From Amphibalanus amphitrite (taxonomy: Eukaryota > Arthropoda > Thecostraca > Balanomorpha > Balanidae), in NCBI RefSeq assembly GCF_019059575.1, contig NW_024881709.1, positions 310,001 to 374,000 on the forward strand: 64,000 nucleotides of DNA, in the 5' to 3' direction. A program made the position numbers and the translations under genes. The notes beneath the pieces are model-generated. The model ran no database searches, was not told the DNA's origin, and saw nothing but the letters and a program-made list of their open reading frames with translations. Positions within the stretch are counted from its first letter, which is position 1. Each line of letters opens with the position of its first letter. This document shows, one piece after another, positions 1,262-64,000 of this stretch.

Positions 1262-1990
1262 CGCGCCGGCCGAGGGGAAGGAGGGGGGGAGGGGGGATGG
1301 TACGATCCCCTTCGCCGTATCGCCCCTGATGGAGCTAAAGCGTCGCGGAAAATACGAGCATGTGCGCCGTTATGAGACGTAGCAAATGGTATCCGATTTT
1401 AAGGTTTCAGGTCAACCGGTGACCTTTAAGCTCAGGTCAGGTGACCCAACACACGGGTTCAGTTTTTCATAAATAATTTCGCAAAAAACGGTCGTAGAGC
1501 TGCTATTTTGGCATCATCGTGTTCGCCTCACTCAACGCACCGAACGGTATACTTTTTCTTCGGTTGAGGCCAACCTGAGATGTTGAACTCAGGTCAAGGT
1601 CAGGTCAGCGCCCCCAGGTCACGAAGCTGGTCAAAGAAGGTCATGTCGCATAGCATTCGATTTTGCAGGTCTTCCTGAGTCCATTGGTGGCTTTGCCGAC
1701 TCGGTAGCTTAATTTGGTCGAGAGATCTTGACGACAAGCTCTTATGCCCAAGTGACGTCATAAATGACGTCACGCAAGGTCAACAATGCACAAATGAAGC
1801 ATCGGACCTTGTCACGCAAGGTCAACAATGCACAAATGAAGCATCGGACCTTGCAAGGAGTGCAAGAAATCACGATTTCGCGTGCTTGAGATATAGTTTG
1901 AGATCGTTCCCGATGCTAAACTAGCAGTTTTCATTTTTCCCCATTAATTTTAATGATGAGGTCACGTGAACGACCTGACCCCATGTGACC
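1262..1990 (-). mobile_element. Truncated AGGTCA-rich hairpin-type element (copy A)
   Basis: This stretch is the reverse complement of much of the element at 22130-23829 and of 27100-27895. Matching blocks include CGCCCCTGATGGAGCT (around 1322), the AGGTCAAGGTCAGGTCAG block (around 1595) and the paired TGACGTCA palindromes near 1752-1772. It lacks the TTAA terminus. A 42-bp tandem duplication (1769-1852) is private to this copy. It is important as an empty-site control: it lacks the 135-bp insertion seen at 23492-23626 in copy B. There is no coding capacity. Confidence 0.8.
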
Positions 1991-2465
1991 TGAGAATGCA
2001 GGATGAGCTTTCTAAACCAGCAGAGCAGTTGAAAGAGGACAAAGAACCGTATGCTTAGCCTTTTCATAGGAAAATGATTGTCTTGATTCTACGTAGCACA
2101 ATTTATCGCAAGATTGTCAACCGATATTAGCAAGGCCGCGGTCGCACACTCTCGTTCCTATAACTCGTGCACGGAGATCTATTGGATGTGCGATGCGTTC
2201 TCGCAGTCAGGAAGGGAAGGATAATCTGAAGCGGCTCATATTTCTCGCCGCATCCCGAGAAGGACCGCCCACTCACCCACAAATTCCCGTCTCAGTTCCG
2301 CGGAGACCGGCGAGTACACAGTTCGGACAACTGCTGTGTATTCGCTGTAAATACAGCAAATTATCGCTCACTGTGGTATCTACTGGGGCGTCGGTGGAGC
2401 GGCAGACCCGACCGCAGCGGTGCGGCGTGCCGCCCATCTGTCGGCTGACGGGGGACGGATGAGCG
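1991..2465. other. No gene recognised
   Basis: Unique-looking sequence between the truncated element and a minisatellite. Short open frames exist, but none has splice sites, codon bias or a family resemblance that I can support. Confidence 0.4.
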
Positions 2466-12736: not shown

Positions 12737-13310
12737 TTAACCCTCGCCCGTATTGGTGTTTCCAGTAGCGAGCGTATAGGGGGGGGGGGGGTCCGTTGGA
12801 CCCTCCCCCTTGCCGTTTCGCCCCTGTTCGAGCTAGAGCTTCGCGGAAAAACGACCGTGTTGCCCGTGATAAAAGGAAGCCGATTATACCCAATTTTAAG
12901 GTCCTAGGTCATCGGTTGACCTTCCAGGTCAGGTCATTGACCCAAAAGTCGGGAAAATCGGGACCTGTTAGAGCGTCATAAAGAGTGGCTGCTATGGTTT
13001 TTCGGGGTGCTGATCACGAATATCATGTTAGTTATGATCATAGATGATGTCTTCATGCATTTAGGCTAGGTCAGGTCAGGTCAGGCCAACCAGTAAGGGT
13101 TTTGCCGGGTATTCGTAGTAGGTGGCAACCGCCTCTGACAGCTTCGTAACATGCTACGAAGGCACCAAAACTACTTCGTAAATGGTCAAATGGTTGCTTA
13201 ATTCGAATTCAGCTCCAAAAACTAGCCTAGAAAGTAGAAACATATAAAACTCGAAAATGTGAACCGAGGTCATCAAAGGTAAATGATCTGACCTGACCTT
13301 CCGGTAATCT
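12737..13310 (+). mobile_element. TTAACC hairpin element, right end missing (copy D)
   Basis: Starts with TTAA then CCCTCGCCCG (12741 onward), followed by a poly-G hairpin GGGGGGTCC-GTT-GGACCC (12781-12805) and the family block GCTAGAGCTTCGCGGAAAA. The interior has an AGGTCAGGTCAGGTCAGG block near 13070. No matching right terminus is found before the minisatellite, so this copy is truncated. It is nested in the hAT-type unit. Confidence 0.8.
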
Positions 13311-13444
13311 TGACACCCACCCTAATGCATGGGAGCTACATCATATCCCATGTTTGAACGTTTGAAACCACGAAAAGACTGCAAACGCGCGGCTAATGCG
13401 AGGCGACATACGCCGAATCGCGACCTCGGCCAAACATGGTGCCA

Positions 13445-14000: not shown

Positions 14001-14240
14001 GTGGGGGGTCATGACCCATATGACCCACCCTTAGATACACCACTGGTCATTACTTACAGACTGACTCATTTGACATCCATTGCAAAACAAGTCACAGTAG
14101 TTACGTAGTATGTTTGTCACCCTGTTCCTTTATGCCCATTTTTATAGTGGGCAAATCTCGACGACTAGGGGGGCAATTCTGTTGAGTGCGGGGGCATTTG
14201 CCCCCCCAGTTAACATGTTAAAATAGGCCCTGAGTGTCCT

Positions 14241-23631: not shown

Positions 23632-23829
23632 TTAGAGGTTACCGGTTGACCTGAGACCTTAAAACTGGGTGCCAGTCGCTGTGTCTAGTAACGGCGCAAA
23701 CGTTCGTTGTTTCCGCGACGCTATAGCTCCATCAGGGGCGAAATGGCGAGGGGGGGTTCGCACGGTCGCACCAACCCCCTCGGCCGGCGCATATGTATGT
23801 ACAAAAGCAATAGGTCCAGCGAGGGTTAA

Positions 23830-27099: not shown

Positions 27100-27895
27100 A
27101 AGCGAGTTTTCGCGATAGCTCAAAACACCCAGGCAATAGAGAGCTGCAACCTGGCATACCTGACCTTTGATGCACGCTGGGTCTTGTGACACCAACCGCA
27201 CTTTCAAGTCAGGTCAGGTCACTGATCTATGACGTCATACATGAACCTCTGCACGATCCTCAGATATCGCAACCTTGCAACGCTCTCAGTGCCAGAGTAA
27301 CTTTCACAGGAAGGTGAGACTTGCAGGACTTATTGTCCTTTAGAGGTCTTACAACTTTTATATCTCAGACTTTCCCTAAATGTCACATAAAGTCAGGTTG
27401 GTCACGTGACCTCACCTATAATTCAATGGGGAAATATGAAAACTGTTATTTTGGCGCCAGGAATGATATTCAATTGTCTCAAGTACACGGAATCGTTACT
27501 CCATGCACTCCTTGCAAGATCTGATGCTGCATTTTTGCATTGTTGACCTTGCATGACGTCATTTATGACGTCATTAGGGTCATACGAGTTTTTCGTCAAT
27601 AACTCCCGATTAAGTTGAGCTAGAGAGTCGAAAAGGTCACCAATGGACTCCGGAAGACCTGCCGAATCGAATGATATGCGATATGACCTCCTTCGACCAA
27701 CTTCGTGATTTGAAGACCTCTGACCTTACCTTGACTCGAGGTCAAGGTCAGGTTGACCTTACGGTGGCCTCACCTGAACAAAAGTATACCATTCGACGCG
27801 CCTGAGCAAGGCGAACACGACGATGTCAAAATCGTGGTTCTGCGGCCATTTTTGCGAAGTTATTTACCAAAAACCAAAGCCGCTGCTTGGGTCAC
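27100..27895 (+). mobile_element. AGGTCA-rich hairpin-type element, ends missing (copy C)
   Basis: Co-linear with copy B (22130-23829): shared CTATGACGTCATA, the TATTTTGGCGCCAGGAA block, paired palindromes TGACGTCATTTATGACGTCA (27554-27573) and GACGCGCCTGAG. It breaks off at GGGTCAC (about 27895), very near where copy B carries its 135-bp insertion. It lacks both nested elements of copy B, so it provides the empty site for the 557-bp MITE. Confidence 0.85.
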
Positions 27896-28816
27896 GTTAT
27901 GAAATGGGGCCTTGCCGGGCGAGATTTACGCTGTTTCATGATATGTATAAATTGGTAGAGCATAATCGTTTGAATAAAAAAATGGTTTGGAAGCAATTTT
28001 CTACGGAGGTACACACCATTTCAATGTCCTACCCAGCTCATACCGTCATAAATTTCGACCTACTCTCAAAAGTATTCATGCGTTATTCGAGCAGCAATTA
28101 GGCAAATTGCAAGCTCGCCACAGAGCACAAATCCTATACGAGATAGTCCTTATTTAAAATATATGCTCATTGGATATTCAAGAAGGTTGCTCCTAAATAT
28201 TGTGGTTCTAGCTTCAAAAACATGGATGTTATGAATGCCGATAGGTTTCGCGAGGCTACACCGGCCGGATCGCCCACTGTGCAGCGCAGTGCACCGAGCC
28301 GCCGGCCGTCCATGCTCAACGCGACAGCCTCCGCCATATACAGCACGGCAGAGATACCATCCTACCGTGACGAAAGATCGCAACAGCCAGCCACATAGTA
28401 TTCGCACACTTAAATAAATAGTACCCTAACCTTGGTAACCCATCACACAGGCTAGGAAATATACCTAATATATTTCTGCGAGAACCTAGGTTTATGTACA
28501 ATTACAGCTCTTAGTGTATTTATAAACCTGTGCCCGACTTACACCGAAGATCTTGTTGACCACAGACTGAAACACGATTTAATCAGTTTAAACGCGAATG
28601 ATAAACGTGTCTCCTTGACCATGTTCCCAAATCCTTCAAAATTCACCTGGCGGCCAAAGTGAAGGAGTGGTGACACACTCGACGCCACGTTAATCACATC
28701 ATTTTTTTTTGTGACCCCTCGATCGACAGAAAGACCAATTTGATTCAAGCGCCTTTCCAAAAAATAGCTTCAACAAAAAAGATATCGGACAATTTCGTGA
28801 AATAATTTTCCTCAAT

Positions 28817-33334: not shown

Positions 33335-33792
33335 TTAACCTTCCCGGGGGTGGGGGGCATTTTTTGCCTCCCCCCTTAGTTTTTTCGATATATCTCCAGA
33401 ACCGCTGCGCCGATCGTCACCAAACGTTCAGTACCCTCCCGTGAATAGCTTTTGCACATTATGACCAACACATTTTCCAAAGACTATGATAGGTTGGCCG
33501 CTAATGACGTCGGAGTGACGTCATTTCTGCCATTTTCGACAAAAAAAAAGATTTCGCGGAAAGAGCTGTCAGGCCTACAGCTTTAGAGATACAGAAAAAT
33601 ATTTCAGACATAAAAGGTGTCGAATTAACAGGGCTACAAAACTGCTATCTCGGATCCTTAAAACTTTAAGATTTTGACCCCCCAAAAAATAGATACCAAT
33701 TACCAGGCCCATCGGGAGAAATGGGCCTAGTATCAGGCCCATTTCCAGGGCCTGATATGGAAATGGCGGCTGGCTCAAGGATGAGCAGTTAA
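33335..33792. mobile_element. TTAACC hairpin-type element, right terminus unclear
   Basis: TTAA (33335-33338) is followed by CCTTCCCGGGGG and a hairpin GGGGGGCA-TTTT-TGCCTCCCCC, then a TGACGTCATT word (near 33516-33525), the same recipe as the other TTAACC elements. A TTAA lies at 33789-33792, but the sequence before it does not mirror the left end, so the right boundary is tentative. Confidence 0.55.
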
Positions 33793-42100: not shown

Positions 42101-45100
42101 TGACTAAGCAATAAATGTGAAACGTTGGGTAATTTCTTGCGTTTTTATCCCTTTTAAAATGAATTCAAAAGTTTAGGCCATACATGCACTTATATGTCAC
42201 ATGTCAGTTTGGCCTAACGTATGGCTACCGGACGTGCATTTGTGTGTGATTAATTCCTGGCTGTCAGTACTGACAGTTGGTATTGGTCTGGTTCATATCT
42301 GGGCCGTTATTTGGGCTGGACCGACCCGTCCTGAGCTGAGTGCAGTCCTCGGACGACGCAGGGGGTGGGCATCGTTCGGAGTTTCGGCGCTAATTAGGCA
42401 GACCCGCCCGCCGGGGGCATCGTTTAGCCGCCCGTCTATCAAGCGGACGGTATGGTTGGCGACGTAGCCTGCTGTTGTGCTACAGATATTGTCCAGTACA
42501 GAGACCCGCCTTTCCACACTGAAAGTAGCTGTGCGTTGTCGACCCTGTCTGACTGCCTGCTTGGCGCTTAGCCCTTGCGGCCAAGACAGGTCCGTCACGA
42601 GTTGACATTTAGTCAAACGGTCGGCGCCGTCCTCGGCTGTGAGACAGTTGTCAGGTGTCCAGAGTTCTGTTTCGTCAAAGCTTGGCCGATATCAGAGCTA
42701 ATGGCCCGCAAGTAAATAGCTCGCCGTGCATCCCTGCCCAGATATGGGAGTAGACGGGGGTTCACAGGGGATAGATACTGGGTTTTAGCGTATGCTGCGT
42801 AGTGCTGATAAGAGCTCTCCGTCTGTGGATCAGGTAAACGATGTTTGTGTACAACTATCCGTTACCCGGAAATAATTAGATTAAACAGTGATGCATGCCT
42901 ACCTACGTCATGTAACATCACTATTGATTTGCTGAACCACTTTGAGACCCACCCGGCATGTCCAGTCCAAATCACGATTGATTTGCTGAACCACTTAAAC
43001 CCTCGCCCGCACATGGGGGGGGGGGGGGGTGGTTGCCACCCCCCCCCCAGGCAGTCTTTCTGCTCTGCACTCAACATTTTTAGAGCTAGGAGGCTGATTT
43101 TTCGTATAGCTGCTCGTCTATCCTTTCTTGATGTCCACTGAAAATTTCAAGTTTCTGTGATTTTTGGTTTCGGAGATATGACCTTGTTTTTCAGGTCATG
43201 TCATGACCCAAATGGCCAATTCTCAACATCTTGCGTTTGCCATGGGCCTTGTGAGCTTTTGACACCCTGATTTCGGCCTTTTTTGCCAGTCTTACCTCCC
43301 ACCTATCATGGAACATGTTGTTCGACGATGTACAGGGGTCAAGGTCAGGGTCAAGGTCAACCTAGGTCATCTAAGATAATTGCGTGTTAGGCAAGCTGAA
43401 TTTACTTTTTGTGAAGTTTTTTTGACTGCATTTTTGGAAAAAGCTTCTCAGATCATGATTTCATGTGATATGGACCCAAAAACAATCGGTGCACACATCA
43501 GTATACACACAGACACACACAGACATACAAACACATATAATTGACCTTGACCTAACTTGACCTGAAATGACCTCAGCAGCAAAATTCTGGTCGGATAGTG
43601 TGACAAAGAGGTTCTAGCTGGCTTGGCACCAGAAAACAGCATCGTCATCGGTATTTGATAAGCAGCGCACTTGATATCCAACGGTGACCCAAAACAGCAA
43701 CATTTTTTAGTTTGACCTGACCTGGAAGGTCAATGACTGACCTGAGAAGGTAAAACTGGGTATCATTGGATTCGTCTCTTCCCAAAGAATCTTTTTGGTC
43801 TTTACTGCTAAGCTCTATCTCCAACAGGAACGAAATGGCGCGGGGGGGGGGTGGCAACCACCCCCCCCATGTGCGTTCTAGGATGGGAAAATGGCATGTG
43901 CGGGCGAGGGTTAAGACCCACCGCCCCGCCATTCAGCGGGCATGTCCAGTCCAAACAACCCATTGCCAGCTCGACAATCACGGCCTCAGTGTCGGCCGGC
44001 CTTCCCGGTACCAGTTCTGGGACCCCTGCCTGTGCACCGCCGGTGCTCCGTGCAGTGGCGATCAGTGAGTCATGGCTCTCCCAGCTGGAGGGCGTCGCCT
44101 GCATGGTGACCGGATCACGGCGCGGCCTTCTATGGACGCCCGGGTCGAGAGTGGGGACCCGCCCCCGGTTCTGCCCGCAGCCCCGCCCATGGCGTTCGTA
44201 GCTATGTCTTAGGTTCGATTGAACCTTTGGTGGCTGGGGTGATATCACGGTTACCCTGCCTTTGGCTGATAAGTTGTCGTATGACGTCATGAATCATGAG
44301 ATGTGTGAATATGAGAGCTCCCGTGGTGCAAGGATGTCGTCCAGTGTCCCAAAATTGAGTTTTGTCATGGGTGTCAGAGGGGAAAAATACCCACCAAAAT
44401 GGGGGGGAGGTAGAAAACTGCTGATTCGATGAGATCTAAAAGGAGTGAGAAACAACAAAAACATGTATTTTATTCTAGGGTGTAGAATGTTTGATGCTAA
44501 ACCTGGCATCCACACAACTGCTCCTGGTAAATAATCCTAAGTTTTCTTGGTTGGGAGTGGACAATTATTCTTAAATATTGGTGGTAAGAGTGAAAAATGA
44601 ATTTAATTTGGATGTCGTTTCCCAACCAAATCGACAAATTTTGGGACATTGATGTCGTCCTTTGCTATCTGACTTTTTATTCTGTCTTGTCGAGCCGAAT
44701 GCAGTTGAGTTTCATGGGAGCCAATTTTATCAGCGCGTAGTCAGTGCTGAAGGCGATAGGTGGTGCAACTGCAGATGAACCTACAGACAGGGTCCGATTA
44801 TCGCACAGTATCGCGCTATTGTCTCACGGCACTGGTCTCTGGCGAACCTGCCACCGCTGCCAGTCAGATCACTGATCACTGATAGTGGTCAGCGATCGAT
44901 CAGAAAGGCTGCAGCGGTGGTTGCTGAGTCGGAGCGACGCCGCTTTTCACAATCGCTCTTCCGTGGGAAACACACAGGGGCCTCCCGTTGGCATCTCTAG
45001 CTAACTCCGCGTCATCGGAATGACTCCCGGCGGCACCTGCCACGTGCTGACGTGTCCACCTGACAGCTCAGTTCCGGCCAGCGCACCTTGTGATGACGTC

Positions 45101-51100: not shown

Positions 51101-54100
51101 GTGAAACGGATACGATTAGCAAGTATGATAGAGGGGCTGGGGTCGGAATTTTCATAGCCACGGCGTTATTCATATCTGCATAAAATCTGCCTGAGGTGCA
51201 TGACTCCTCCCTGCGATTTCGGCACTGAGTTGAATACAAATAGTAAATGTTGCGCTATCCCGCCTTTCAGAACTGTGCTGAAATACGCACCGTCATGCAG
51301 TATTGCCCGACTGGTGCCAGCCATACTGGCTTTATTTGTACGTTGTAAACTTGCAGAGTTTTCCTGCTGCTCTTCATCCAGTCTGTCTGTTGTGGCTGGG
51401 TCCCGTCCTCAGGGCCCAGGGGGGGGGGGGGGGGGGCGGTACGAGTGTTGAAACATCGCGCCTGTCTCGTTGGCTGCACTGCAAAATGCCAAACATCTGT
51501 AGTTTTGCAGTGGCGCGCTCACCACTTCTGTTTGCAGCTGGGCGATTTCACAATGAAAAAATCACCGAACAAAGGCGACGGTAGAAGACGTAACGAGTGA
51601 TTGCATTTACCCGAGCTTCCTGTTGCCCCCGGTCGCCTCTCCGGACTTCCCGTTTGTGTGTCGGCGGGGTGCGGACGGCAGCGTGTTTCTCTCGCGCGCG
51701 CCGCCGCTGGAGATGGCCTGTCGTGACGTAACCAGCACCGGCGATGGTATCGGTCCGCGGCGGCGAGCGCGGCGGTTACTGCCCTGTCGGACGGGCGCCG
51801 CCCCGCGAGCTGAGCCAGGCGCCGCCCTGCGAGCCTGAGAGCTGGGCTGTCGCTGGAGTGAGTCGGCCGAGAGAGAGGGAGAGACTATTTGACTGACCGA
51901 GAGAGACATGACCGAATTGTTGGACCGTCTGGGAGAGGAGAGGGACGGGTACTGCCCGTTGGAGCCTCTGAGAGGGACTGGTACTGTCCCTTGTTCTCAG
52001 TCATCGACCGGCCTCTCAATCATCATACCACTGCTCACCTCCGGTCTCCTTATCGACCACCGGGTCCTGGGACGTGGTGCTGGACGAGCCACGGTAGCTG
52101 CTCTCAGATCTGGATATAAGCATAACAGGGGCGGGTCACGGACGGGCTCACTCATGTACGACATGCCGTGGACGCCACGCCCACAACTGGTTATATCACC
52201 CCGCCAAGTGGCACACAGCCGGCTGGTGGGCTGAACTCAGATTTCTGTTTCTGAAGAGGATGAGACAGGGATATGCATTGGCACTCTACTCAACGCCTCG
52301 CGCAGCTCCGGTCGTACTGTGTGTCGCCGCCGCCCTGGCAGTCAGTCACGTGGTCAGAGCGCAGCACGGCGGCGTGCCCCAGCCGCACTGCGCTGCGGGT
52401 TATGCAAAGCTACGGACCGCTTTTGGCCCGGCTGTTTGGACCAAGGCCGCGCTGTGCAAATGACATTGCAAGGCCCATCTTGTTGCTGGTGAGTCAGACC
52501 ACGGGTATGCTGGGTACTGGAGAGTGAGTGTGGTGGTCAGCGCGGTTTTAGATATTTACGGGAAAAGCGTTCAGGTTAAGCCATGGATTGCCAATCCCTT
52601 AACCCTCGCCCGTAAACGGCGATCTGCCACCTTCGCCCATGCAGGGGGGGGGGGGGGGGTTGGTGCGACCCCCCCCCCCTTGGCGTTTGAAAACGGAGCG
52701 TCGTAGAGCTTAGCGGAAAAGACCAACGGATTGCTCTCGCCGAGATCTCGCGATTGGTGGTATATTTTTTGGTCCTAGGTCAACATTTGACCTACTTTTG
52801 ACCGGTCAAAGGTCAAATTTTCGGAAAAATAGACTTGTTTCAACTTTCGGCGGCGATTGCAGCAAAACGGTGGGAGATATCGACTTGAAACCTTCACTAT
52901 CGTGTTTCTTGATCAATTCTCTATCGTTTGGTATGTATTTCGTTTCCCTAGCTCTAAAAATGGCGCGTTGGGAGCGCCGGAAGTCGGCAAGGTCACAGTC
53001 GGCGGCAGAAATTCGAAAAATCAAAATTTAAATTTTTGAAATCTGATTGTATTTTTGGATTTGGGAGGTCCATTTGCTCCCTATAGAAGCTAATATTGCT
53101 GCATATTCCCATTGAGGTGACAAGAATTAGCAAAATAGTGGTTCGGGCGCTTTTCAAAAATAGTACCGGACGCTGTTCCTCTTGTGACGTCATAGCTCCG
53201 TGACCTGACCTGACCCGGTCAAGTTTCTTATACCATATGATAGCCAATACTTGCCCCAACATGCATGGGAAGTTTCATCACGATCCATCAACCGATGTCC
53301 GTACCACCGGCAGGAAACCTCGGGCGTTGGCACTCAGTTTGTGAAAATCCGGCCGGAGGCTGTTCCCTTTGTGACGTCATAACTCCGTGACCTGACATGA
53401 CCCGGTCAATTTTTTTTTATCAAAAGATGCGCAAGGTTTGCCCCATAAGGTACCCAAAATTTGGCGGCGCTGCGCGCCGCCGTTTTTGCACTATTTCCGA
53501 AAAGCCTCAGGGGGGGGGGGTTGCACCAACCCCCCCCCCCTACATGGGCGAGGGTTAATGCCACGGACTGAGACATACAATGTGCATCCTTTGCATGTGC
53601 CAAATCACTTTTGTGCTAATCACGCTGCTATATTACGGGACAAGATACTTGTATCCCCGTGGACATTCCATCTCATGCCATCTACCTCATCACTGGCACC
53701 ACTCTCCGTCCTGTTAGAGGCTCCACCCATTATGGTCCCACTGAACCCGTGCTCAGCTCGCCTGCACAGTTCAGCCCGGCTGCCCACCGTAGCGCCGTGC
53801 TCAGTTCGCTATGCTCTGGCGGTGACGCGGCCTTGACTGGCAGCTCGGACGAGTCGGTTTGGTGAGCAGGGGTGAGCGTAGGTGAGCTGGGGTGAGCCAG
53901 GGTGAGCTGGGGTGGGGTGGTGTGAGCTGGGGCGAGCGTGACGCCTGGTTTGCTGCTACTGCTAGTTACGGCGGGGGCGACTGCGCGTATCCCCACCCCG
54001 ATGTGAATCTGCGGTGGCGGGTCACCACTCCCCAGACCAGTGTCCCAAAATTATATTTTGGCTTGGGTGTCAGAGGGGAATATTCGTCACTATAAAGAGG

Positions 54101-57100
54101 GATGAGAGTGGAAAATTGCCAGATAGGAGTACAAAAAAGAGCAGAAAACAGATATCAACAATTACCTAATTTGTGAGTGTTGGAGGATGTGGGAGCTGCC
54201 TTACAAGATCATTGAATCGAATATGGAGAGAGGTACAAAGTGCACGCAGATGCTCTTAATTGGTAAACTAGGGAGTGAAAAATCGCTCTGGAAAATTGGA
54301 GGTGAGAGTGGAAAATTATTTTGATTTGGATGTTACTTGATACTTCCCACCCAAACTGGCAAATTTTGGGACACTGCCCCAGACCGGCTCCATGCGGGCC
54401 GCCACGCTGAGTCTCTCTGAGCAGAGCAAAGGGCAGGGGGCACTCGGCCGTACCGGTGATTCCATCCGCCGGCCACCGGCCCGACCTTGGCACCCCACAA
54501 TCAAGGCTACCGGGCGCTACCGAGCCGCGCACCTAACGTGGTGGTATGGCGCGTCTGCCGCTGCGTACCGGACACCAGTCGGACGGGAGGGGTGTTGGGA
54601 GAGGACGGAAAGGGATACCGGTTGAGTGAGGGCACTGTCGGAAGATAAGTGTCTTCTGCCGCCGTTCTCACCCATCATATTTCAAGCCTCTATCCCAGCA
54701 GACCCGTGTGTTACCCGTGTGTCCTCCCGGTGAATTCGGCGGCTCTAACGGCTGGTTGGCGGTAGAAGCGGCGCTGGAGATGCCAGGTGGCAGACTGGTG
54801 GGTCTGGGCTGTTGAGCTACGCACTGGGCACGGGACATGGTCCAGTGAACTGTCCAGTGATTCGACCGCCCGTCCCCCTCTGTTATCCACGTGGTCTGCT
54901 CCAACCAACCTGTCGATTCAGTGGACTGAAAGGAAGCCGTTCAGATGGTCTGGAGGTCCTACCGGCTGGAGAGGAACCCCCCTCCCCCTTCAGTGCAGCC
55001 GCCAGGGGAAGGAGGGAGCTCCCTCCCCTTGTCTGTCGACAGGAGTGTTGAGCACGCCCGTCACTGTCGGCGGCTTCAGTTGTTAGTGCGGCGCTACTGC
55101 GGTAATGCAGTCTGCGGGCGGCGTTTACTCGGCTAATGAGTCGGTTTCTCTGTGTTTGTGGCCCGCGGCGTGCACCGGGCTGGGTTGCCCCGCCGCCGTT
55201 ACCCCGCCGGCGCCGTGCAGTGGAGCTGTGCCATGTTTGTGTTCCCCGGGCTGGCGGCCAGCCCTGGTGACGTCATATGCCGACGGCGCCGGAGGCTGTT
55301 GTTAGGGGGGAACGGGGTCATTTCATGACACTGCAATGAGAACGGCGGGGAGCGGATGATGATCGGTGCAGGTATCTACTGATGGTAATCGTCAAGTCTC
55401 CGCCGGTGAAGTCGTCTTGGTATATCGTCACTGTTGCCTTTTCTCTCACTGCAACTGTTAAAGCTTCCACCGCCGTTGGAGCCCTTGCACAGAGCACAGC
55501 CCCACTGTCTGGCAGGGCCGAATATGGCCTCCGGTGACGGGCCGGGCCGGGGATGACGCCCACGGCTTATGTCAGTCACCGCTCCTCCCTTCCTCCTCCC
55601 TTCCTCCTCCCTGTCCGCGTCCGATACGGTAGTGAAGGCGAAGGGTGGGTAGGGGCAGCTACGTCATCAGTTATATGATTCTGGTCACGGAGGTGACGAT
55701 GGGCAAATCCAATCGGCCAGCTGTTCGATGCGATAAGCAGTCAATCGATCAGACTAGCCGATCGGCTGTCCAGTGTCCAGTCCAGTCAATCAGTGGGTCA
55801 GTACGACTGTTCAGCAGTTCAGTCAACCAACTAGAAAAGTCAGTGCCATGCACTCTAGCAATTTAACACGCGCACTGCAGCGGGTCTGAGCCGAACACGA
55901 ACTGCAGGGGGGGGGGGGGGGGTTGAAAACAACCCCCCCTGATATCTCAAAAACGGCGCAACGTAGCGACAAGCGGTAAACGGCGTTGGATAGGTTGAGA
56001 TGAGATCTACAAGAAATACAAAGATCATTTTTGAGTCAGGTCAAAAACGAGGTCACCAGAGGTCACCGAAGACAAAATGTTACGATTTTCACAACAGGAA
56101 TTTCGCGGTAGTTTTTCTTGAATAACTTGTCTTGCACACAAGACAGAGGATCGATTCGAACGCCATCGTTCTTAGCTCGTCAAGGCGCATCGAATGATAT
56201 ATAATATGACCTCGAAAGGTCAAGTTGAAAATTTGACCTCAGGTCAAGGTCATGACCTGACCGAAATAGGTCATGTTGCATAACATTCGATCTGCATTGA
56301 CGAGAAAAACACGATAAACGTCGAACGGAGTCTCTATCTCTATTCAATCTCAAGTTATTGAAGAAAAACCGCTGGTGACCTCAGGTGACCTAAGATGACC
56401 TGGAGATCACCTTCCAAAGGTCATAAGTGATATGTTTCGGTGAAATCACCAACAGGGACCTGTAATACTATGATCCTGAGCGTATTGAAGTCATAGGATG
56501 TCATTCAGAGTAAGTTGAAATTTCTCCCATTGACTTATAATGGGCCGGTCGCAAAAATGACCTGACCTTAGGTCATCGATATAAAAATTCCGAGATATAC
56601 AAGTTGTAGCTCGTGATGACTTTACCATTTCCTGTGGGTTTCAAGATCATATCTCAACAACTGTGGGCTTGGTGGGATTGCAAACTTCGAAATTTACGTT
56701 TCGAGGTAGGGTCACTTGACCTGACCTGGTGACCTGACCATAAGTCACCTGGGGTCAAAATTTTTACTCAAGGTGTGCAAAAGTTGGGAGAACAGGTATG
56801 CAAAATTTGGCGGCGCTACGCGCCGCCGTTTTCTCGCGATTTGCGAAAAACCACAGGGGGGGTTGAAAACAACCCCCCCCCCTGCAGTGCGCGTGTTAAC
56901 AGTGCGTATCATATCAGCCAGTCAGGATGATGTACGCCGATGACGTTCAGTTTTTACATCTAGCATCACCGAAGCGAATTTTAGAGCTGAAGACAGATAC
57001 CGAATGTACTTTAGACATTGCGAGTCATTGGTTTGTTCAAAACTGCCTAAAAATCAACCCCAAAAAGACAGAACTGTTAGTTGTAAAATCACGTAGGAGG

Positions 57101-59236
57101 CAGCTTGACTTTGATTTTAATGTACAGTTTGGAGATGATGTTATTCAAACTTCCGCTAGCATTAAGGTATTGGGTGTAATTGTCGACTCTGGCTTGACCT
57201 TTGAGCCACATGTGACGGAGGTGATTCGCCGATGCTACGCCACATTAGGAGGACTGTGTAAATCTTCGCGATGCTTACCGAAAGAAGTGAAGAAACTGAT
57301 CGTTGAGATGCTGATCTTCCCCCACATCCGCTACTGTCTGTCGGTCTGGTCGGGCTGTGGCGTTGTTCAGCGTCGCCGCGTGCAGCGAGTTATTAATCAC
57401 TGCGCACAGGTGGTTATGGGAGCTCGCCGCTCAGCACACGTGACTCCGCTGTTGGAGGAGCTCGGGTGGCCCCAGATAGACGAGCTTGTGGCGGAGAGTG
57501 ACTGCGGTGTTGTTCACTACTTGGTTAACAATACCAGTGCGCCGAGGTGTCTCTCGGAGCGGCTCGAGCGCCGCAGTGACGTCTCTAGTAGGGAGACTCG
57601 TGCCACTGAGAGCGACCTGCTCCAGCTGCCGAAACCCCGCACCGAGCAGGCGCGGCGGTTCTTCCGGTACCGCGCCGTTGCACGCTGGAACTCACTGGCC
57701 CTGGATGTGCGTGACAGTAAAACGTCTGCTGGGTGTCGCAGGCGCTTTAGGAGGGCGCTTTAGGCTCTTATAATGTGTGATACCACGTCATACGTGCTGT
57801 ACTTTTTTTCCTTTAACATCTTTACCATTCAGCGTATATGTATTTATGTATTGACACTTGGACAGAATAGCCGTGAATACGGAGTTCCAAACGAAATAAA
57901 TGATGATGATGATGATGATGTTGGCCTGCTGTCCCGGTCGGCGCTTTGGATGGCCTATCGCGTTCTGTGGCTGATAGTCCCGGAGACCGCGCGGCGCACA
58001 GTACCTGGCTGTCGCAGGAGTACCACACTAATCTCGGAGTACCTTCCCACACAAGGCGACCTAGACAAACACCGGGACGGTATCGGCGGCGATCCGGCTA
58101 TCTGTTGGTGCTCTGATTGGAATCGGCTTTACGCTGCTTTCGTGACCCGTGTAGGTCCTTAGTAGATGGTAGTTTGACGTTGATTTTGAGAGAACTTAAA
58201 CATACACCTTAGCGTGCCTGGCAAGACTAGGCTGTATATCCCTGATTTTGAGGCTGCTTTGAGTGCTTATGTCACCCAACTGCCCCGCGCCGCTCGCAGA
58301 CTGCCACGTCTGACCTTTCAGTCCCAAATATTAGCTCTCACTATCTGCGCTGCATGTCATCGGCCATCCTCGGATCGGCTCTGGATCAGTGATCCTTCCG
58401 CCATCAACTGTCGACATCCAGTCGTCCATCCGTCGAACGAGAAGGCCCTGACAGCATTGGCCGGCCCCGGGGAGGGAGGGGTATCATCCAGCAGCGGCTG
58501 GGTCGGCGGTCGCGCTCTGAGGTCGCTTAGTAACTGGCACATCGGAACAGCAGTCACGGCTTGACACCGCTGACAGCTGATTGTTACACAGAGGGATGGA
58601 GGGTAGTGTGGAGTGGATGGGTGTAAGTGATGGACGGGAACGCGCGACGGTTGAACGATTGTGAGTCAGCGCTGATCAGTGGTCGGGGATGTGGTTTATG
58701 CGATCTGAATGTATCAGATGTAGTGGTATTTGAATTTCTGTGTAGTTTACTACACATTTCACTAGTGTGTTAGACGATGTTATACGACTTGCTGCTGGTT
58801 TCTGCATGTTTGAAGCTGAAGTTGGTCAACCAGTGGAATGAAATATTTCTTGTATACGTCTGTGAAATGTGTTACCATTTGGGGTTTCGTGAGACGTTTC
58901 CCTGTTTCTGCACCTATGATCTTCCAGTTTTGGGATGTTTGTATGTAACCAGCTGTCTAACCATCTACGACAATCCGCTGCCCTATTCACCTGCCACTAC
59001 CCTTCCCTCAAACAGTAACCATTCACTGACGCCCTCTCTCTGTTCCACAGGAAATGTCAAGCCGTCGGGTCCGGCTGGCGGCGGCAGTAATGGCGTGGGC
59101 CGGCCCGGCGCGGGCGGGGGCGGCGGCGGAGCCGCCCCGGTCGCCAACGGCGGCCCGCCCGGCTTGGGCGGCCTGTTCGCCGGTGGGATGCCCAAGCTGC
59201 GGCCGACCGGTCAGGGCCGGGGTCGGACAGAGATCG
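39156..59236 (+). CDS. Vrp1: Verprolin / WASP-interacting protein (WIPF), two N-terminal coding exons
   Basis: Actin regulator that binds actin through a WH2 motif and stabilises WASP. Coding exon 1 is 39156-39330 (exon begins 39134 after an acceptor; 22 bases of leader) and coding exon 2 is 59051-59236 (acceptor TGTTCCACAG, donor GTGAGT). Both junctions are phase 1 and join in frame. Exon 1: poly-proline profilin-type run (2-17), PRKPAAKGPDR, WH2 helix ALLSDIHKGARLKKV (34-48) and TNDRSAP, the signature of this family. Exon 2: NVKPSGPAGGGSNG, a glycine-rich stretch, then PPGLGGLFAGGMPKLRPTG, matching the conserved GLGGLF..GMPKLR block of WIP proteins. The gene continues to the right of the window; the C-terminal WASP-binding part is not present. 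The 19.7-kb intron is full of mobile elements. The start GTG at 39153 is not used; ATG at 39156 is. Confidence 0.92.
39331..42922. other. Verprolin intron, first part
   Basis: Mixed to GC-rich intron without recognised exons. A purine run GGGGGGGAGGGGAGGGGGG lies at about 41511-41532 and may form a quadruplex. TTAACCCC (40871) and TTAACCCTG (41457) words occur but lack partner ends. Confidence 0.45.
42923..42996. repeat. 54-bp tandem duplication giving an empty insertion site
   Basis: ATTGATTTGCTGAACCACTT occurs at 42923 and 42977. The first copy continues into TGAGACCCACCCGGCATGTC; the second is interrupted by the element at 42995-43914 and resumes after it with GACCCACC... GGCATGTCCAGTCC. 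The first copy is therefore a natural unoccupied version of the target. Confidence 0.9.
42995..43914. mobile_element. TTAACC hairpin element, full length (copy G)
   Basis: TTAA (42995-42998) plus A, then CCCTCGCCCGCACATG; the right end is CATGTGCGGGCGAGGG then TTAA (43911-43914). Inside each end is a G/C hairpin: G-run, TGGTTGCCA core, C-run (43015-43049 and 43842-43868). The interior has AGGTCAGGGTCAAGGTCAAC and TGACCTTGACC blocks. Length about 920 bp; no coding. TTAA target and CCC start fit piggyBac-type non-autonomous elements. Confidence 0.93.
43915..44333. other. Intron, no feature recognised
   Basis: GC-rich; the minus frame (43808-44290) overlaps the mobile element and is rejected. 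Confidence 0.4.
44334..44659. mobile_element. Small hAT-type MITE, copy 1
   Basis: The ends CAGTGTCCCAAAATT and inverted AATTTTGGGACATTG (44342-44651) are flanked by a perfect 8-bp duplication ATGTCGTC (44334-44341 and 44652-44659). Length 310 bp. Related along its length to the copy at 54038-54376. Confidence 0.96.
44660..52598. other. Verprolin intron, CpG-rich middle part
   Basis: No exons recognised. About 46400-49400 is strikingly GC- and CpG-rich, particularly 47100-49100, unlike the flanks, and could be a CpG-island-like regulatory region or internal promoter. A TATAAA at 49080 with TCAGAC at 49102 is weak core-promoter evidence. G-runs occur at 51420-51436 and a C-run at 46679-46691. 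The long frames here (for example 48571-49266) follow from the base composition. Confidence 0.45.
49080..49107 (+). promoter_or_regulatory. Possible internal core promoter in the verprolin intron
   Basis: TATAAA (49080-49085) followed by an initiator-like TCAGAC (49102-49107) at the edge of the CpG-rich block. The spacing (24 bases) is shorter than usual, so this is only a suggestion. Confidence 0.2.
52599..53558. mobile_element. TTAACC hairpin element, full length (copy E)
   Basis: TTAA (52599-52602), CCCTCGCCCG; right end CATGGGCGAGGG then TTAA (53555-53558). G/C hairpins at both ends: G16-TTGGTGCGA-C11 (52644-52679) and G11-TTGCACCAA-C12 (53510-53541). The interior has two GTGACGTCATA palindromes, each followed by ACTCCGTGACCTGAC or close variants (53187 and 53371), a direct internal repeat of about 180 bp spacing. 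Length 960 bp, no coding. Confidence 0.94.
53862..53942. repeat. GGGTGAGCT-type minisatellite
   Basis: About eight degenerate units of GGTGAGCTGG (roughly 10 bp). Not coding. Confidence 0.9.
54030..54384. mobile_element. Small hAT-type MITE, copy 2
   Basis: The ends CAGTGTCCCAAAATT and AATTTTGGGACACTG (54038-54376) are flanked by a perfect 8-bp duplication CCCCAGAC (54030-54037 and 54377-54384). Length 339 bp. Together with copy 1 this defines a family with GAGAGTGGAAAATT repeats inside. Confidence 0.97.
54385..55862. other. Intron, no gene recognised
   Basis: GC-rich; contains degenerate CAGTC/CAGTCA-type short repeats at 55735-55830. No supportable exon. Confidence 0.4.
55863..56899. mobile_element. 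TTAACA hairpin element, full length (copy F)
   Basis: TTAA (55863-55866) then CACGCGCACTGCAG; the right end is the exact complement followed by TTAA (56896-56899). G-run, TTG-AAAA-CAA, C-run hairpins sit inside both ends (about 55907-55938 and 56855-56882). The interior is full of AGGTCA and TGACCT words, for instance near 56225-56270 and 56370-56405. It shares TTTGGCGGCGCTACGCGCC with copy E near the right end, so it is the same superfamily with a different terminus. Length 1037 bp, no coding. Confidence 0.94.
56925..57920 (+). mobile_element. 5'-truncated non-LTR retrotransposon (reverse transcriptase C-terminal part)
   Basis: An open frame at 56927-57763 begins exactly at the reverse transcriptase catalytic block MYADDVQF and continues through the thumb: CLKINPKKTELLVV, KVLGVIVDSGLTF, FPHIRYCLSVWSGC, then RYRAVARWNSLALDVRDS near the stop. 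This order is typical of the Jockey/CR1 group. The upstream fingers/palm and the endonuclease are absent, as expected from truncated reverse transcription. The 3' end is AATAAA followed by a (TGA)n run (57896-57920), which serves as the tail. The coding part has no stop, so the insertion is fairly young. It starts only 25 bases after the TTAA element at 55863-56899. Confidence 0.92.
57921..59050. other. Verprolin intron, last part
   Basis: No further feature; ends in the acceptor TGTTCCACAG at 59050. Confidence 0.5.
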
Positions 59237-59906: not shown

Positions 59907-62900
59907 TCACACATACTGGTAGGAGCGCCGAGTGGGGTCGACGACTAGCTTCTTCGGAGGCCGTGTCTGACGGGTGCTGCGGCGGGGGACATCAGGCGGG
60001 GTGTCTGCGAAGCGGACTTGCTTCTTCGGTGGAGCTGCTACTGCTGAGGACGCTGCTCTCGTAGTAGTGGCGGCGGGTAGCGTTGCAGGTCGAGCGTCGT
60101 TGCGCTCGTTTGTAGGGACGAGCGGGTGGCATGGGCGCAGGAAGCGCCTGTTGCGCCACAGCGTGCGCCCGCTGGGCAGTTTGATGAGGTAGGCCCTGTG
60201 AGTGCCGATGGCGACGACTACTCCCGAGTGATCCCAGAGTCCGGTCTGGCGACTCTGAACAGATACATGAGAGCCGATCTTCAGCGGAGCGAGAGGGCGG
60301 GATGCTACATCGTAGCGCTCCCTGGCGGCTTCTCGCTGATCATGAGCTCGCGTGTCGCAGTCGTCTGCGGCCGCACGCCAGCGACCGGCGAAGGCGGTGT
60401 GGTGCATCGGCACCGTGCTGCGGATGGGATGTCCGTATAGGATCTCTGCAGGCGAGCGGCCGTCTGTCCTTGGGGTGTTTCTCAGCTCCAGTAGCGCCAT
60501 GGTGAACTGCTCCATATCCAGGCGACCGGATGTGCTGCACTTCTGTACGAGCCTCTTGACACTCTTCACAGCCGCTTCGGCGTGCCCATTGGATTGTGGG
60601 TAGTGTGGTGATGAGACTATGTGGGTGACGCCCCACCTCTTCAGGAAGTCTCGTGTGAAGCGAGCGGTGAATTGGGGTCCGCCGTCCGTCTTCAGGCAGT
60701 TTGGTGCGCCCGTGGCGGCGAACACTTGTCGGAGATGATGCACCAGGATCTTGGCTGTTGGCTCGCCCTCGCCGTCGATGTAGATGGCGATAGGCCACCC
60801 TGAGAGTCGATCGGCCACGACCAGCCAGGATTTGCCCGCGTGTGAGAAGAAGTCCGCGGACATCGTCTCGAAGACGCGGGACGGTTCTGGGTCACTCAGC
60901 ATCGGCTCCTTCTGCTGTGATGGCAGATAGGTCCGGCAGGCTGAGCAGGTGGTGACGGTCTCGTGAACTTGTTGGTTCAGGCCGGGCCAGTAGACGGACT
61001 GTCGGGCCCGTCGTTTTGTCCGTTCTATGCCCTGATGACTCGCATGAAGTCGTTGGAGGATGTCGCGTCTGAGGCTGCGTGGGATGAGGAGACGTGTTCC
61101 ACAGATGATGACGTTATCATCCAGGGTGAGGCTGTCCTTCACGTGCCAGTACTGACGCAGACTGGACGGTAGATCTGCTTTCTGGTCGGGGAAGCCTTGC
61201 AGAATGACGTTCGTCAGCGCCTGGTATTCATCGTCGTGCCGTGCAGCTGCACGGATCTCGTCGATGAGCAGGTCAGGTGCGGGGTGACTCTCGTCATCGG
61301 ACATCTCCGGTATGTTGGCCAGGGCGATGCTGCGGAGATGAGGATGAGCATCCTCTTCAGCTTCCAGGTCTTCCTCTGTTGGGTCGTCGATAGGCGCTCT
61401 GGAGAGGGCGTCCGCGATGCAGTGTGTCTTGCCGGACTTCCACACTGCTGTGAAGTGGTATGGCACCAACTTCTCGCGAAGGCGGAGAAGACGAGGGTTC
61501 TCCACTTGTGCCAGAGATTTCTGGTTGAGCAGTGGGATGAGGGGACGGTGATCGCTGACTATGTCGAACTCCTTCAGGCCGGCCAGGTAGAGGTGGTTCT
61601 TCTTGACAGCCCAGCAGATGGCGGTCATCTCCAGCTCGATAACGGCGTATCGGGACTCGGTGTCAGAGACAAACCGAGATCCACACTGGATGAGACGCCA
61701 GTGTTCGTCTTGAAGCTGGAGAAGCGCGTATGACAGGCCATGCAGACGCGTGGCGTCGGTGTGGAGAGCTGTTGGCAGACCGGTCTGGAAGAATGCCAGC
61801 ACGGGTGCAGACAGCAGAGCTGCCTTGACTGCCTCGAACGCTTCCTGGTGGACGCTGGTCCAGCACCAGTGGTTCTTGGGCTGAAGTAGAGCACGCAGCG
61901 GACCGGCGGCATGCGCTGTCTCAGTTGAGAATGAGGCCAGCTGGTTGACCAGCCCCATGAAGCTGCGGAGGTCTGTCAGGTTCTGTGGCGTTGGGAAGTT
62001 GGAGATGGCGCGAAGCTTGCGCTGATCCACGGTGTATCCGTCCTTGCTGATGTTGAACCCGCAGTACTCGACCTCTGGCTGGGCGAACTGGAGTTTCGCT
62101 GGGTTGAGTGTGATGTTGTGCTTCGCACATCGCTCCAGGACGTCGATGACGTGCTTGAGGTGGGACGAGTAGGTGCTGTCGTGACACAAGATGTCGTCGA
62201 TGACCTTGCAGGTTTTGGGGATGCCGGCCAGTGCGACATCACCTCGGCGGTTGAACTCATCTCCGGATGAGCTGAGGCCTTGGACGCATCTCTCGAAGCG
62301 ATATCTGCCCCATGGGGTAATGAAGCAGGTGAGATCTTTCGCTTCTTCAGCGAGTGGCACTTGAAAGTAGCCATTCTTCGCATCGAGCTTGGTGAAGAAC
62401 TTGCTGTCCTTGTTGATGTTCGTGATGACGTCTTGGCATGATGGTGCAGGGTGGGCGCCGCGACGTACGTGCTTGTTCAGCATCGTCAGGTCGACGCAGA
62501 TCCTGACATCGATGGTGTTGTTGTCTTCTGATGGCTTCTTCGGCACGACGACCAGTGGATGACACCACTCTGTTGGATGGGTGACTTCCGAGATGATGCC
62601 ATCCCGCTGTAGCTTGTCCAGCTGCTCCTTGGCTTTGTCCCTCCAGGCGAATGGGATGGAGCGGGGCGCGGTGACGGCGTATGGCTGAGCGTCTTCATTG
62701 AGCACGATCTTCATGGGTCCGCCGATCATCTCTCGAAGTGGACGATTGACGTCGAATACCTCGGAAAAGGCGGTCTTCAACATGTTCAGGTGCTGGTTCT
62801 TCACCTCCTCCGATGGTTCTCCTTGCTCCTGGTGCCAGACTGGATACGTCGGTGGCGCCAGAGTAGGAGAGGCGGTTGCTGGTTGTTGGACCTGGTGCCG

Positions 62901-63275
62901 TGTGGACGGACTGGCATCTTGACGCGAGGACGCCAGCTTGTTGATGAGGTTGCCGGTTGACTTGCTGGCCGACTTGCTGGTCGAGCTGATGTTGCTGTTG
63001 TCCTTCAGATGAGGCAGCGCACCATCGCAGCTGATCTGCTTCGGGAAGTCGGTCGGCAGGATACCGAGCTCGATACATCGATCCCATGACAGCAGAGCGC
63101 CAGTGATGGTCGGGATGATGCAGACGGTGACGGACGATGCTGTTGCTTTACCCAGTTTGAGTGTGCACAGGAACGTGCCTTTGCAGTCGAGTTCTTCTCC
63201 AGCTGCTCCGAACAGGCGATCTGGTGGCGGTGACAGGCGTGTCATGTCGACGCCAATCTGCCGGGCCTGCTGGGT
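59907..63275 (-). CDS. Gypsy pol: reverse transcriptase, RNase H, integrase
   Basis: Open without interruption from the end of the protease to the stop (TGA at 59907-59909). Counting residues from an upstream in-frame ATG at 63662: the reverse transcriptase has LDAKNGYFQVPL and the catalytic box V-I-D-D (about 487-490; the usual first residue is Tyr or Phe). RNase H has LHTDATRLHG and DALSRAP. The integrase has the HHCC zinc finger (HASHQG ... CSAC) and D937, D993, E1029, an exact DD35E spacing. A GPY/F-like module (VVVAIGTHRAYLIKLPSGRT) follows. The layout PR-RT-RH-IN is Ty3/gypsy, and the closest style is the K02A2.6-like group of invertebrates. The start used in the intact element would be upstream, in gag-pol. 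Confidence 0.95.
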   Translation of the reverse strand, partial: TQQARQIGVDMTRLSPPPDRLFGAAGEELDCKGTFLCTLKLGKATASSVTVCIIPTITGALLSWDRCIELGILPTDFPKQISCDGALPHLKDNSNISSTSKSASKSTGNLINKLASSRQDASPSTRHQVQQPATASPTLAPPTYPVWHQEQGEPSEEVKNQHLNMLKTAFSEVFDVNRPLREMIGGPMKIVLNEDAQPYAVTAPRSIPFAWRDKAKEQLDKLQRDGIISEVTHPTEWCHPLVVVPKKPSEDNNTIDVRICVDLTMLNKHVRRGAHPAPSCQDVITNINKDSKFFTKLDAKNGYFQVPLAEEAKDLTCFITPWGRYRFERCVQGLSSSGDEFNRRGDVALAGIPKTCKVIDDILCHDSTYSSHLKHVIDVLERCAKHNITLNPAKLQFAQPEVEYCGFNISKDGYTVDQRKLRAISNFPTPQNLTDLRSFMGLVNQLASFSTETAHAAGPLRALLQPKNHWCWTSVHQEAFEAVKAALLSAPVLAFFQTGLPTALHTDATRLHGLSYALLQLQDEHWRLIQCGSRFVSDTESRYAVIELEMTAICWAVKKNHLYLAGLKEFDIVSDHRPLIPLLNQKSLAQVENPRLLRLREKLVPYHFTAVWKSGKTHCIADALSRAPIDDPTEEDLEAEEDAHPHLRSIALANIPEMSDDESHPAPDLLIDEIRAAARHDDEYQALTNVILQGFPDQKADLPSSLRQYWHVKDSLTLDDNVIICGTRLLIPRSLRRDILQRLHASHQGIERTKRRARQSVYWPGLNQQVHETVTTCSACRTYLPSQQKEPMLSDPEPSRVFETMSADFFSHAGKSWLVVADRLSGWPIAIYIDGEGEPTAKILVHHLRQVFAATGAPNCLKTDGGPQFTARFTRDFLKRWGVTHIVSSPHYPQSNGHAEAAVKSVKRLVQKCSTSGRLDMEQFTMALLELRNTPRTDGRSPAEILYGHPIRSTVPMHHTAFAGRWRAAADDCDTRAHDQREAARERYDVASRPLAPLKIGSHVSVQSRQTGLWDHSGVVVAIGTHRAYLIKLPSGRTLWRNRRFLRPCHPLVPTNERNDARPATLPAATTTRAASSAVAAPPKKQVRFADTPPDVPRRSTRQTRPPKKLVVDPTRRSYQYV

Positions 63276-64000
63276 ACCATGGCACAGACCTCTGCGCCGC
63301 TGTCGGGGATCCAGGAGATGACTGCTCGTCCATGGTTGTGCTGCACCTCTATGTCGACTTTCGGCGTCCGTCTTGCCGACAGACCCCGAACTCGGATGCC
63401 GAAAAGGCGTTGAGATCCCCGTAGTGGTGGTGGTGGGGATGCACTCCGTCGTCTGTTGCGGGTGTTCTGCGGTGGTGGTGGGGATGCATCCCGTCGTCTG
63501 TTGCGGGTGTTCTGCGGCGGCGTGTTCTGCGGTGGCTGTTGACGGTCTTGTTGCTGAGACCCGTCTCCGTGCTGTCCAGAGCGAGTCGTCTGGTTCTGGC
63601 CACTCCTGCACACCGATGAGAAGTGGTGGAGCCTGTTGCATGCTGAGCATCGATGGTTTCATCCAGGTCGGAAGTATCCGTGACGTCGCTGAGGCCGAAC
63701 TTGATGATTCGGTACCATTCGTCGTCGACGATGGTGTACAGAGACGCGCGCTGTTCCTTTTGTGACAGCTTGTCTACTCCGGTCAGCATGTTGTAGCCGT
63801 TGAGTCGTTCCTTCCAGGTCGAAAACTCCCTGAGGCTGGCGCCGCCAGATAGACGCGGCGCTGGCGTAGCTGAGGCCGGAAGTTTCGGGCGATTTGCTGA
63901 GGTTTCATCACGGCGATTGTTCGTAGAAACTGCAGTAGAGGTAGCTGCAGCCTGTGTTTCAACGATTGCCGCTAGACGTTCTTCTCGCTGGTTAGCAGTC
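63242..64000 (-). pseudogene. Gypsy gag and protease region, frame-broken
   Basis: Three frames are used in turn. From the right edge to about 63650 one frame encodes the middle of gag (LREFSTWKERLNGYNMLTGV, then LYTIVDDEWYRIIKFGL). A second frame then encodes a CCHC zinc knuckle, CSACNRLHHFSSVC (63608-63649; spacing CX2CX4HX4C), and the protease catalytic motif IPDSGAEV (DSG at about 63295-63303), but runs into a stop at 63242. The pol frame is the third, with the change near 63275. Between the gag part and the knuckle much of the usual gag C-terminal half is missing. A 51-bp tandem repeat (about 63427-63525) adds Pro/His-rich filler. The copy is therefore inactive by itself. Confidence 0.8.

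Follow-up and report, generated by a model that had tools for sequence, protein, structure and literature searches.

TTAA-flanked elements with asymmetric G/C-run palindromes in Amphibalanus amphitrite, probable non-autonomous relatives of piggyBac

A 64,000-nucleotide stretch of the Amphibalanus amphitrite contig NW_024881709.1 (assembly GCF_019059575.1; positions 310,001 to 374,000, forward strand), referred to here as the window, carries several TTAA-flanked elements in which a run of G, a short core, and a run of C form a palindrome near the element ends. What kind of transposon has such ends, and what could the palindrome be for? The elements are most likely best read as having piggyBac-type ends rather than as a new kind of element, with the G/C palindrome in the slot of the palindrome bound by the piggyBac transposase. 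They are probably non-autonomous piggyBac-type transposons, with the palindrome as the predicted transposase-binding site. All results on the elements are from this single window; the names E1, E12, E23, E27, E33, E43, E52, and E55 denote the palindrome-bearing elements and their relatives.

Palindromes and asymmetric ends of the TTAA elements

Three complete elements (E43, E52, and E55) were identified, and TTAA was present on both edges of all three. An earlier note, made from the sequence alone, had given the coordinates of E52 exactly and had listed six elements with palindromes at both ends; this held for the three complete elements, with one recognizable end each remaining at 12737 (E12) and 33335 (E33) and a degenerate end at 23829 (E23).

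52599..53558, + strand: E52, complete element with TTAA on both edges; left is the long end, right the short end
52603..52643, + strand: E52 long-end tip, 41 bp, of whose final 14 positions 12 agree with the short tip
52644..52679, + strand: E52 long-end palindrome, G16-TTGGTGCGA-C11
53510..53540, − strand: palindrome of the E52 short end, reading G11-TTGGTGCAA-C11 inward from the tip
53541..53554, − strand: E52 short-end tip, 14 bp, CCCTCGCCCATGTA
42995..43914, − strand: E43, complete element; left is the short end, right the long end
43015-43048 and 43842-43868: E43 palindromes, core TGGTTGCCA
55863..56899, + strand: E55, complete element; left is the long end, right the short end
55907-55939 and 56856-56882: E55 palindromes
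12737..13420, + strand: E12, long end alone; tip of 38 bp, palindrome at 12779-12809 with core TCCGTTGGA, inner limit approximate
33335..33375, + strand: E33, short end alone; tip of 13 bp, palindrome at 33352-33375, inner sequence similar to the short ends of E52 and E55
23750..23829, − strand: E23, long-type end with degenerate palindrome and TTAACCCTCGC tip; inner sequence similar to the long ends of E12, E43, and E52
1262..1998, + strand: E1, truncated relative that retains the interior and the inner portion of a long end; homologous to both E23 and E27
27120..27910, + strand: E27, interior relative of E23 without recognizable ends

E12 is nested within a hAT-like element, and its right end was not found in the window. 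No partner end for E33 was found within ∼6 kb at four or fewer mismatches of 10. The degenerate palindrome of E23 lies 46 bp from the tip.

Palindromes of this design are real, occur above chance level, and are linked to TTAA. Using a strict pattern (at least five G, 3 to 14 nucleotides, at least five C), nine were identified in the window, compared with zero to two in each of 20 first-order Markov sequences; when runs of six or seven were required, seven and six palindromes remained, compared with none in the Markov sequences. The E23 palindrome has a core too long for the pattern and is outside this set. There were 28 runs of at least seven G or C in the window, 14 of them inside the nine palindromes. 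TTAA was located 12 to 17 or 37 to 43 bp outside the palindrome in eight of the nine, compared with a maximum of four (mean, 0.67) under random TTAA placement in 2,000 trials and zero to three for 11 other tetranucleotides; these distance windows were chosen post hoc, so the figure is descriptive. The two classes of offset were far apart (13, 13, 14, and 16 bp versus 38, 40, 41, and 42 bp). The ninth palindrome, at 14190, has TTAA at 2 bp and is part of the hAT-like element.

The palindrome had been described as lying immediately inside the terminus. In all three complete elements it is instead set 13 to 16 bp in at the short end and 40 to 42 bp in at the long end (38 bp at 12737), giving a difference of 26 bp in E43 (27 bp without a stray A) and 27 bp in both E52 and E55. 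The 13 to 16 bp directly preceding the long-end palindrome repeat the short tip, matching at 12 of 16 positions in E43, 12 of 14 in E52, and 10 of 13 in E55; shuffling of this part gave scores as high in 0.03%, 0.01%, and 0.04% of cases, respectively (p = 0.0003, 0.0001, and 0.0004). This asymmetry with its tip repeat was missed by the earlier note.

The terminus given as an example in that note, CCCTCGCCCG, was confined to four ends: the one at 12737, the two of E43, and one of E52. Other tips differed, with CCCTCGCCCA at the second E52 end, CACGCGCACTGCA in E55, CCTTCCCGGG in E33, and CCCTCGCTGG in E23. All six places carrying a palindrome started with CC or CA after TTAA (preceded by the stray A at the short end of E43), reading CCCT in E43, E52, E12, and E23, CCTT in E33, and CACG in E55. 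The two ends of an element matched without interruption over 16 bp in E43 (extra A ignored), 9 bp in E52, and 14 bp in E55.

The earlier observation of a conserved design with changing cores was borne out. G-run, core, and C-run were kept, and the cores read TGGTTGCCA in E43, TTGGTGCGA and TTGGTGCAA in E52, TCCGTTGGA in E12, CATTTTTTG in E33, and TTGAAAACAA in E55. The distance from G-run to C-run was 9 bp in six palindromes of four elements (counted to the first C in E33) and 10 bp in both E55 palindromes, and the bases adjacent to the runs covaried (TGG/CCA, TTG/CAA, and TCC/GGA). The AAAA centre of the E55 palindromes has a direct rather than an inverted orientation between the two ends, so that from the tip inward one core reads TTGAAAACAA and the other TTGTTTTCAA, i.e., with the centre flipped. 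A symmetric protein dimer would tolerate such a flip.

End identity was also assessed from the 100 bp directly inside the palindrome, compared among nine ends (four short and five long) against 200 shuffles. The short-end flanks of E52, E55, and E33 were mutually similar, accounting for three of the six short pairs (z-scores of 27, 11, and 8; range, 7.7 to 27; reached by 0 of 200 shuffles), and 7 of the 10 long-end pairs were similar (z, 4.6 to 27). For eight of the nine ends, the best match was within its own end class. Two independent measures, the length of the spacer and the homology of the inner flank, thus mostly concur on end identity across differing cores.

Comparison with piggyBac and alternative explanations

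The piggyBac element of Trichoplusia ni (IFP2) has a CCCT tip, as do several of the elements described here, and a palindrome that is not known to be composed of G/C runs. Its ends are described as a 13-bp repeat, a spacer of 3 or 31 bp, and a 19-bp repeat, which places the latter 16 or 44 bp from TTAA (PMC1783651). Of the ends termed LE35 and RE63, the right carries a 17-bp insertion and a sequence duplication, such that bp 34 to 63 of the right end are nearly identical to bp 7 to 35 of the left; the palindromic 19-bp repeat is occupied, as duplex DNA, by a cysteine-rich-domain dimer, reported on bp 17 to 33 of one left end (PMC7351741). The authors of that structure called the end asymmetry "enigmatic." Each of these reported layout features has a counterpart in the window elements: the TTAA target, a palindrome near one tip and ∼28 bp deeper at the other, and an inner repeat of the tip at the long end. 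The T. ni element differs in its reported offsets (16/44 bp versus 13 to 16/38 to 42 bp here) and in encoding its own transposase. For the superfamily, terminal repeats of 12 to 19 bp starting with CC[C/T]T have been described (PMC2872659), and the four tip motifs listed in one report on piggyBac elements include CCCTC and also CACTA (PMC10813416). The right end of piggyBat, as reported, is without such a palindrome (PMC11707139); the asymmetric-palindrome plan is therefore not universal in the superfamily.

Several non-autonomous elements share part of this plan. Human MER85, bound by PGBD3, is a TTAA element with a 16-bp imperfect palindrome near its 5′ end, reported as the main transposase-binding site; it differs in its length of ∼140 bp and its 13-bp repeats, and the accessible text of the report makes no mention of G/C runs (PMC3459987). 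Pokey and mPok of Daphnia form a piggyBac family of crustaceans that has inner repeats and includes ∼750-bp non-autonomous copies; they differ in having imperfect repeats of 12 or 16 bp and inserting into ribosomal DNA, and the available sections of their description do not mention G/C palindromes (PMC3849761). CMITE elements of Acropora corals are piggyBac-type TTAA miniature inverted-repeat transposable elements (MITEs) in which the tips change and an inner part is conserved; they differ in being ∼100 bp long, and neither a G/C palindrome nor an AGGTCA ladder (see below) is mentioned in the accessible part of that source (PMC2872659). The earlier view that no family of this precise design has been described holds to the extent that none with G/C-run palindromes was found in searches of one open literature library (Repbase and Dfam were not covered); the architecture itself is known from piggyBac. 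The suggestion of TTAA-targeted transposons linked to piggyBac is supported by the TTAA edges and the piggyBac-like end plan.

In the proposed mechanism, each end would be recognized in two parts by a piggyBac-like transposase whose gene would lie elsewhere in the genome. The 13- to 16-bp tip beside TTAA would be read by the core domains of the transposase, and its C-terminal cysteine-rich domain would dock as a dimer on the G-run/C-run palindrome. The short end would comprise tip and palindrome, and the long end ∼27 bp more, the inner part of which repeats the tip. This additional ∼27 bp could let a second transposase dimer dock in a higher-order assembly and distinguish left from right, with excision and reinsertion at TTAA following the piggyBac route. 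The end asymmetry of piggyBac is apparently kept here in elements with largely different tip and palindrome sequences. If so, geometry, more than sequence, would be the ancestral feature, and these elements would provide natural sets of matched ends for study, turning the hairpin puzzle into a directly testable mechanism.

A site related to the E43 target without the insertion was found directly to the left of E43:

42917..42953, + strand: related uninserted site, matching the joined flanks of E43 through the insertion point except for one gap and two mismatches

Only 1 of 2,000 random right flanks scored as high at this site, and by eye more right-flank letters (GGCATGTCCAGTCCAAA) are present in the left copy after a gap. 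The site is read as a putative diverged paralogue of the target site, not an allele.

A number of observations weigh against a piggyBac origin of these ends. In the uninserted site TTTGA stands in place of the TTAA of the joined flanks, the left flank alone contributes 47 of the score of 57, and a joined-flank search of the window identified no empty sites for E52 or E55. A stray A separates TTAA from CCCT at the short end of E43, the E55 tip starts with CACGC rather than CC[C/T]T, the long-end core of E52 contains a mismatch, and the palindromes of E33 and E23 are imperfect. The short-end inner flank of E43 was similar to no other end, and the long flank of E55 was similar to that of E52 (z, 7), not to those of E43, E12, and E23. 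Among the 20 cross-class pairs, two had z-scores of ∼4 (the short ends of E52 and E55, each with the long end of E55) and two of ∼3 (E55 short with E52 long, and E33 with E55 long). Finally, a Pfam scan covering 107 of the 129 listed frames with at least 97 amino acids identified no transposase of any kind, and no autonomous copy was seen in the window.

Searches of other sequence collections were also made. A genome-contig scan for tip plus palindrome returned 78 matches, all in bacterial or archaeal records and none of the 78 with TTAA before the tip, and these were attributed to chance. The same applied to four loci in viral contigs with a piggyBac tip, none of which had the 19-bp repeat. 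Viral contigs yielded no match to the exact pattern of tip plus G-run or to the inner short-end motif common to E52 and E55, and plasmids yielded no piggyBac tip.

As an alternative, the G/C runs could have grown neutrally by slippage at an ordinary short palindrome and be functionless themselves. Run lengths are unequal between the E52 ends (16/11 versus 11/11), and at 33335 and 23829 the runs are short or interrupted. Set against this, every one of the six ends of the complete elements has runs on both arms, always with G outside and C inside. We consider neutral growth unlikely; it grades into the piggyBac-type reading and would require binding of the inner core alone. Run lengths probably do vary by slippage, with dyad symmetry and the core spacing of 9 to 10 bp mostly kept.

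The palindrome could also act as an extruded hairpin or cruciform, recognized by its shape by the transposase or a host factor. All nine ends were predicted to form hairpins as single-stranded DNA (−7.1 to −18.5 kcal/mol), the changed cores mostly retain pairing, and inner inverted repeats of piggyBac-like elements have been proposed in a recent preprint to be capable of forming hairpins or cruciforms (PMC12324416). The z-scores of the predicted folds ranged from −1.0 to −2.6, suggesting that hairpins are possible yet unexceptional given the composition. The corresponding palindrome of piggyBac is reported to be read as duplex by the cysteine-rich-domain dimer (PMC7351741; PMC1783651), and shape recognition appears improbable here. 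The proposal that a hairpin or G-quadruplex is the working form was weakened both by this duplex recognition and by the short G-runs at five of the nine ends.

Membership of another TTAA superfamily, Kolobok or Sola3, is a further alternative, which we regard as very improbable. Sola3 elements likewise use TTAA. The same target is reported for Kolobok, the ends of which start with RR, and with AG or AGGRR in T2-MITEs (PMC6004289), but the palindrome-bearing elements start with CC or CA. The window does contain three TTAA elements that start with AGG and lack a G/C palindrome: 15019-15493 (AGGGA), 22416-22972 (AGGAA), and 35448-36342 (AGGTA). The AGGRR tip fits the first two and the RR tip all three. 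Hairpin-free TTAA copies, foreseen as a possible counterexample to a conserved hairpin, are thus present, but with tips nearer Kolobok they do not refute it. Asymmetric subterminal palindromes are, in addition, the plan of T. ni piggyBac.

That the G-run forms a G-quadruplex required for transposition is extremely improbable because, although four of the nine ends have outer G-runs of 13 to 16, the other five have runs of 11, 10, 8, 6, and 5 (a run of 11 would allow a two-tier quadruplex at best), the facing C-run would compete through pairing, and E55 has kept dyad symmetry despite its flipped centre, which a strand-specific fold would not need.

AGGTCA clusters inside the elements

AGGTCA was the most enriched hexamer (of those with at least 15 sites) in the seven related elements, where it occurs 83 times, a 17.5-fold enrichment relative to the rest of the window (49.8 kb with 37 sites, not counting the satellite and the other TTAA elements). 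It was absent from E150, E224, and the 966 bp of E33 (a palindrome-bearing element with no fixed inner limit) and occurred once each in E354 and E116. The sites were grouped in clusters, for which coordinates are the start positions of the first and last motif.

56038..56735: E55 ladder, five AGGTCA/TGACCT clusters (56038-56060, 56207-56268, 56376-56418, 56558-56570, and 56717-56730)
43179..43743: E43 ladder, four clusters (43179-43193, 43342-43364, 43542-43568, and 43713-43738)
52777..53393: E52 ladder, four positions (52777-52810, 52990, 53201-53206, and 53388), of which two are single motifs

Across E12, E1, E43, E52, and E55, the 15 cluster spacings ranged from 154 to 214 bp (mean, 181; standard deviation, 18), and none of 5,000 random sets was as even; E23 and E27, two of the seven elements and relatives of E1, are truncated or interrupted and were excluded from this pooled test. 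Fourier power peaked at 180 bp, a peak reached by none of 2,000 random cluster placements. In the complete elements, clusters together with the TTAA edges defined 16 segments of 160 to 214 bp with a coefficient of variation of 0.086 (0 of 4,000 broken-stick divisions as even). This evenness was the same for grouping distances of 40 to 100 bp, and the coefficient was 0.105 when the pentamer GGTCA was used.

AGGTCA is the core half-site of many nuclear receptors. With 7 of 82 sites being TCAAGGTCA and 23 of 82 lying within GGTCAGGTCA, no single nuclear receptor is indicated. The ∼180-bp spacing is near the nucleosome repeat, and the clusters might fix nucleosomes, leaving the TTAA ends in linker DNA, or attract to each linker a protein that binds AGGTCA, a chromatin ladder that we consider possible though doubtful. 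If it held genome-wide, this would be an unusual transposon with an interior organized at the nucleosome scale, which would surprise a specialist. A literature search combining AGGTCA, transposable element, nuclear receptor, and MITE identified no paper with all four.

Against such a ladder, the pattern was seen post hoc in one window and in elements that partly share ancestry. Spacings were less regular in E23 (218, 137, and 150 bp) and E27 (170, 312, and 334 bp). The best period per element ranged from 167 to 202 bp and the ratio of length to period was 5.05 in E43, 4.75 in E52, and 6.21 in E55, so the TTAA edges fit the grid only roughly. Among 15 frequent hexamers, the normalized power of AGGTCA was 0.63 (62 sites), and several overlapping hexamers were equal or higher; CCCCCC, from the end palindromes, reached 0.77 at 290 bp and AAAATT 0.67 at 202 bp with 14 sites.

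Recent tandem duplication was considered as the source of the ladder; one E52 interval, of 187 bp, can be put down to it. After masking of the motif, similarity was seen in 7 of 51 within-element module pairs, three of the seven being the two ends of one element; recent duplication therefore explains the ladder only in part. An ancient tandem origin in which only the motif was kept is possible.

The same motif family occurs in a 143-bp tandem satellite at 5768-10129 (some steps of 162 bp), which has ∼3 TGACCTTGA-type sites per unit, 79 TCAAGGTCA sites, and TGACCT in 30 clusters.

Other features of the window

The Kolobok-like TTAA element at 22416-22972 has the tip AGGAAATAGTTCAC with a perfect 14-bp match and is inserted in E23. 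E27 is without this insertion and has TAAA at the position corresponding to TTAA in E23. At 11623-12250, a fourth inverted repeat (179 bp, 94% complementary, 270-bp spacer) is flanked by TTAA and has ATG tips, the stretch that starts with ATG spanning 11672-12201. The hAT-like element that holds E12 extends over 12674-14232, with an apparent 8-bp duplication, AGTGTCCT, identified by eye, and also contains a minisatellite (∼13430-13990). At 449-1261, 26-bp inverted repeats (TAGGGGAGAGAGGTCATATTGCGCCA) bound 813 bp and by eye appear to mark a TA-targeted element that removed the tip of E1.

Pfam matches at E values of ≤0.01 in the 107 frames included Sec62 (4.7e−27) and Chitin_bind_4, an insect-type cuticle protein domain (1.4e−14), with weak matches to INTS5_C (0.0018) and reverse transcriptase (0.0039). 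This set of matches is that of eukaryotic DNA and suggests an arthropod. The cuticle protein frame, at 24865-25413, contains a four-copy QLGENGAGQR repeat. By eye, a long open gypsy-like polyprotein frame lies on the minus strand at 59907-63773, and a reverse-transcriptase-like frame at 56900-57763 starts directly after the right TTAA of E55.
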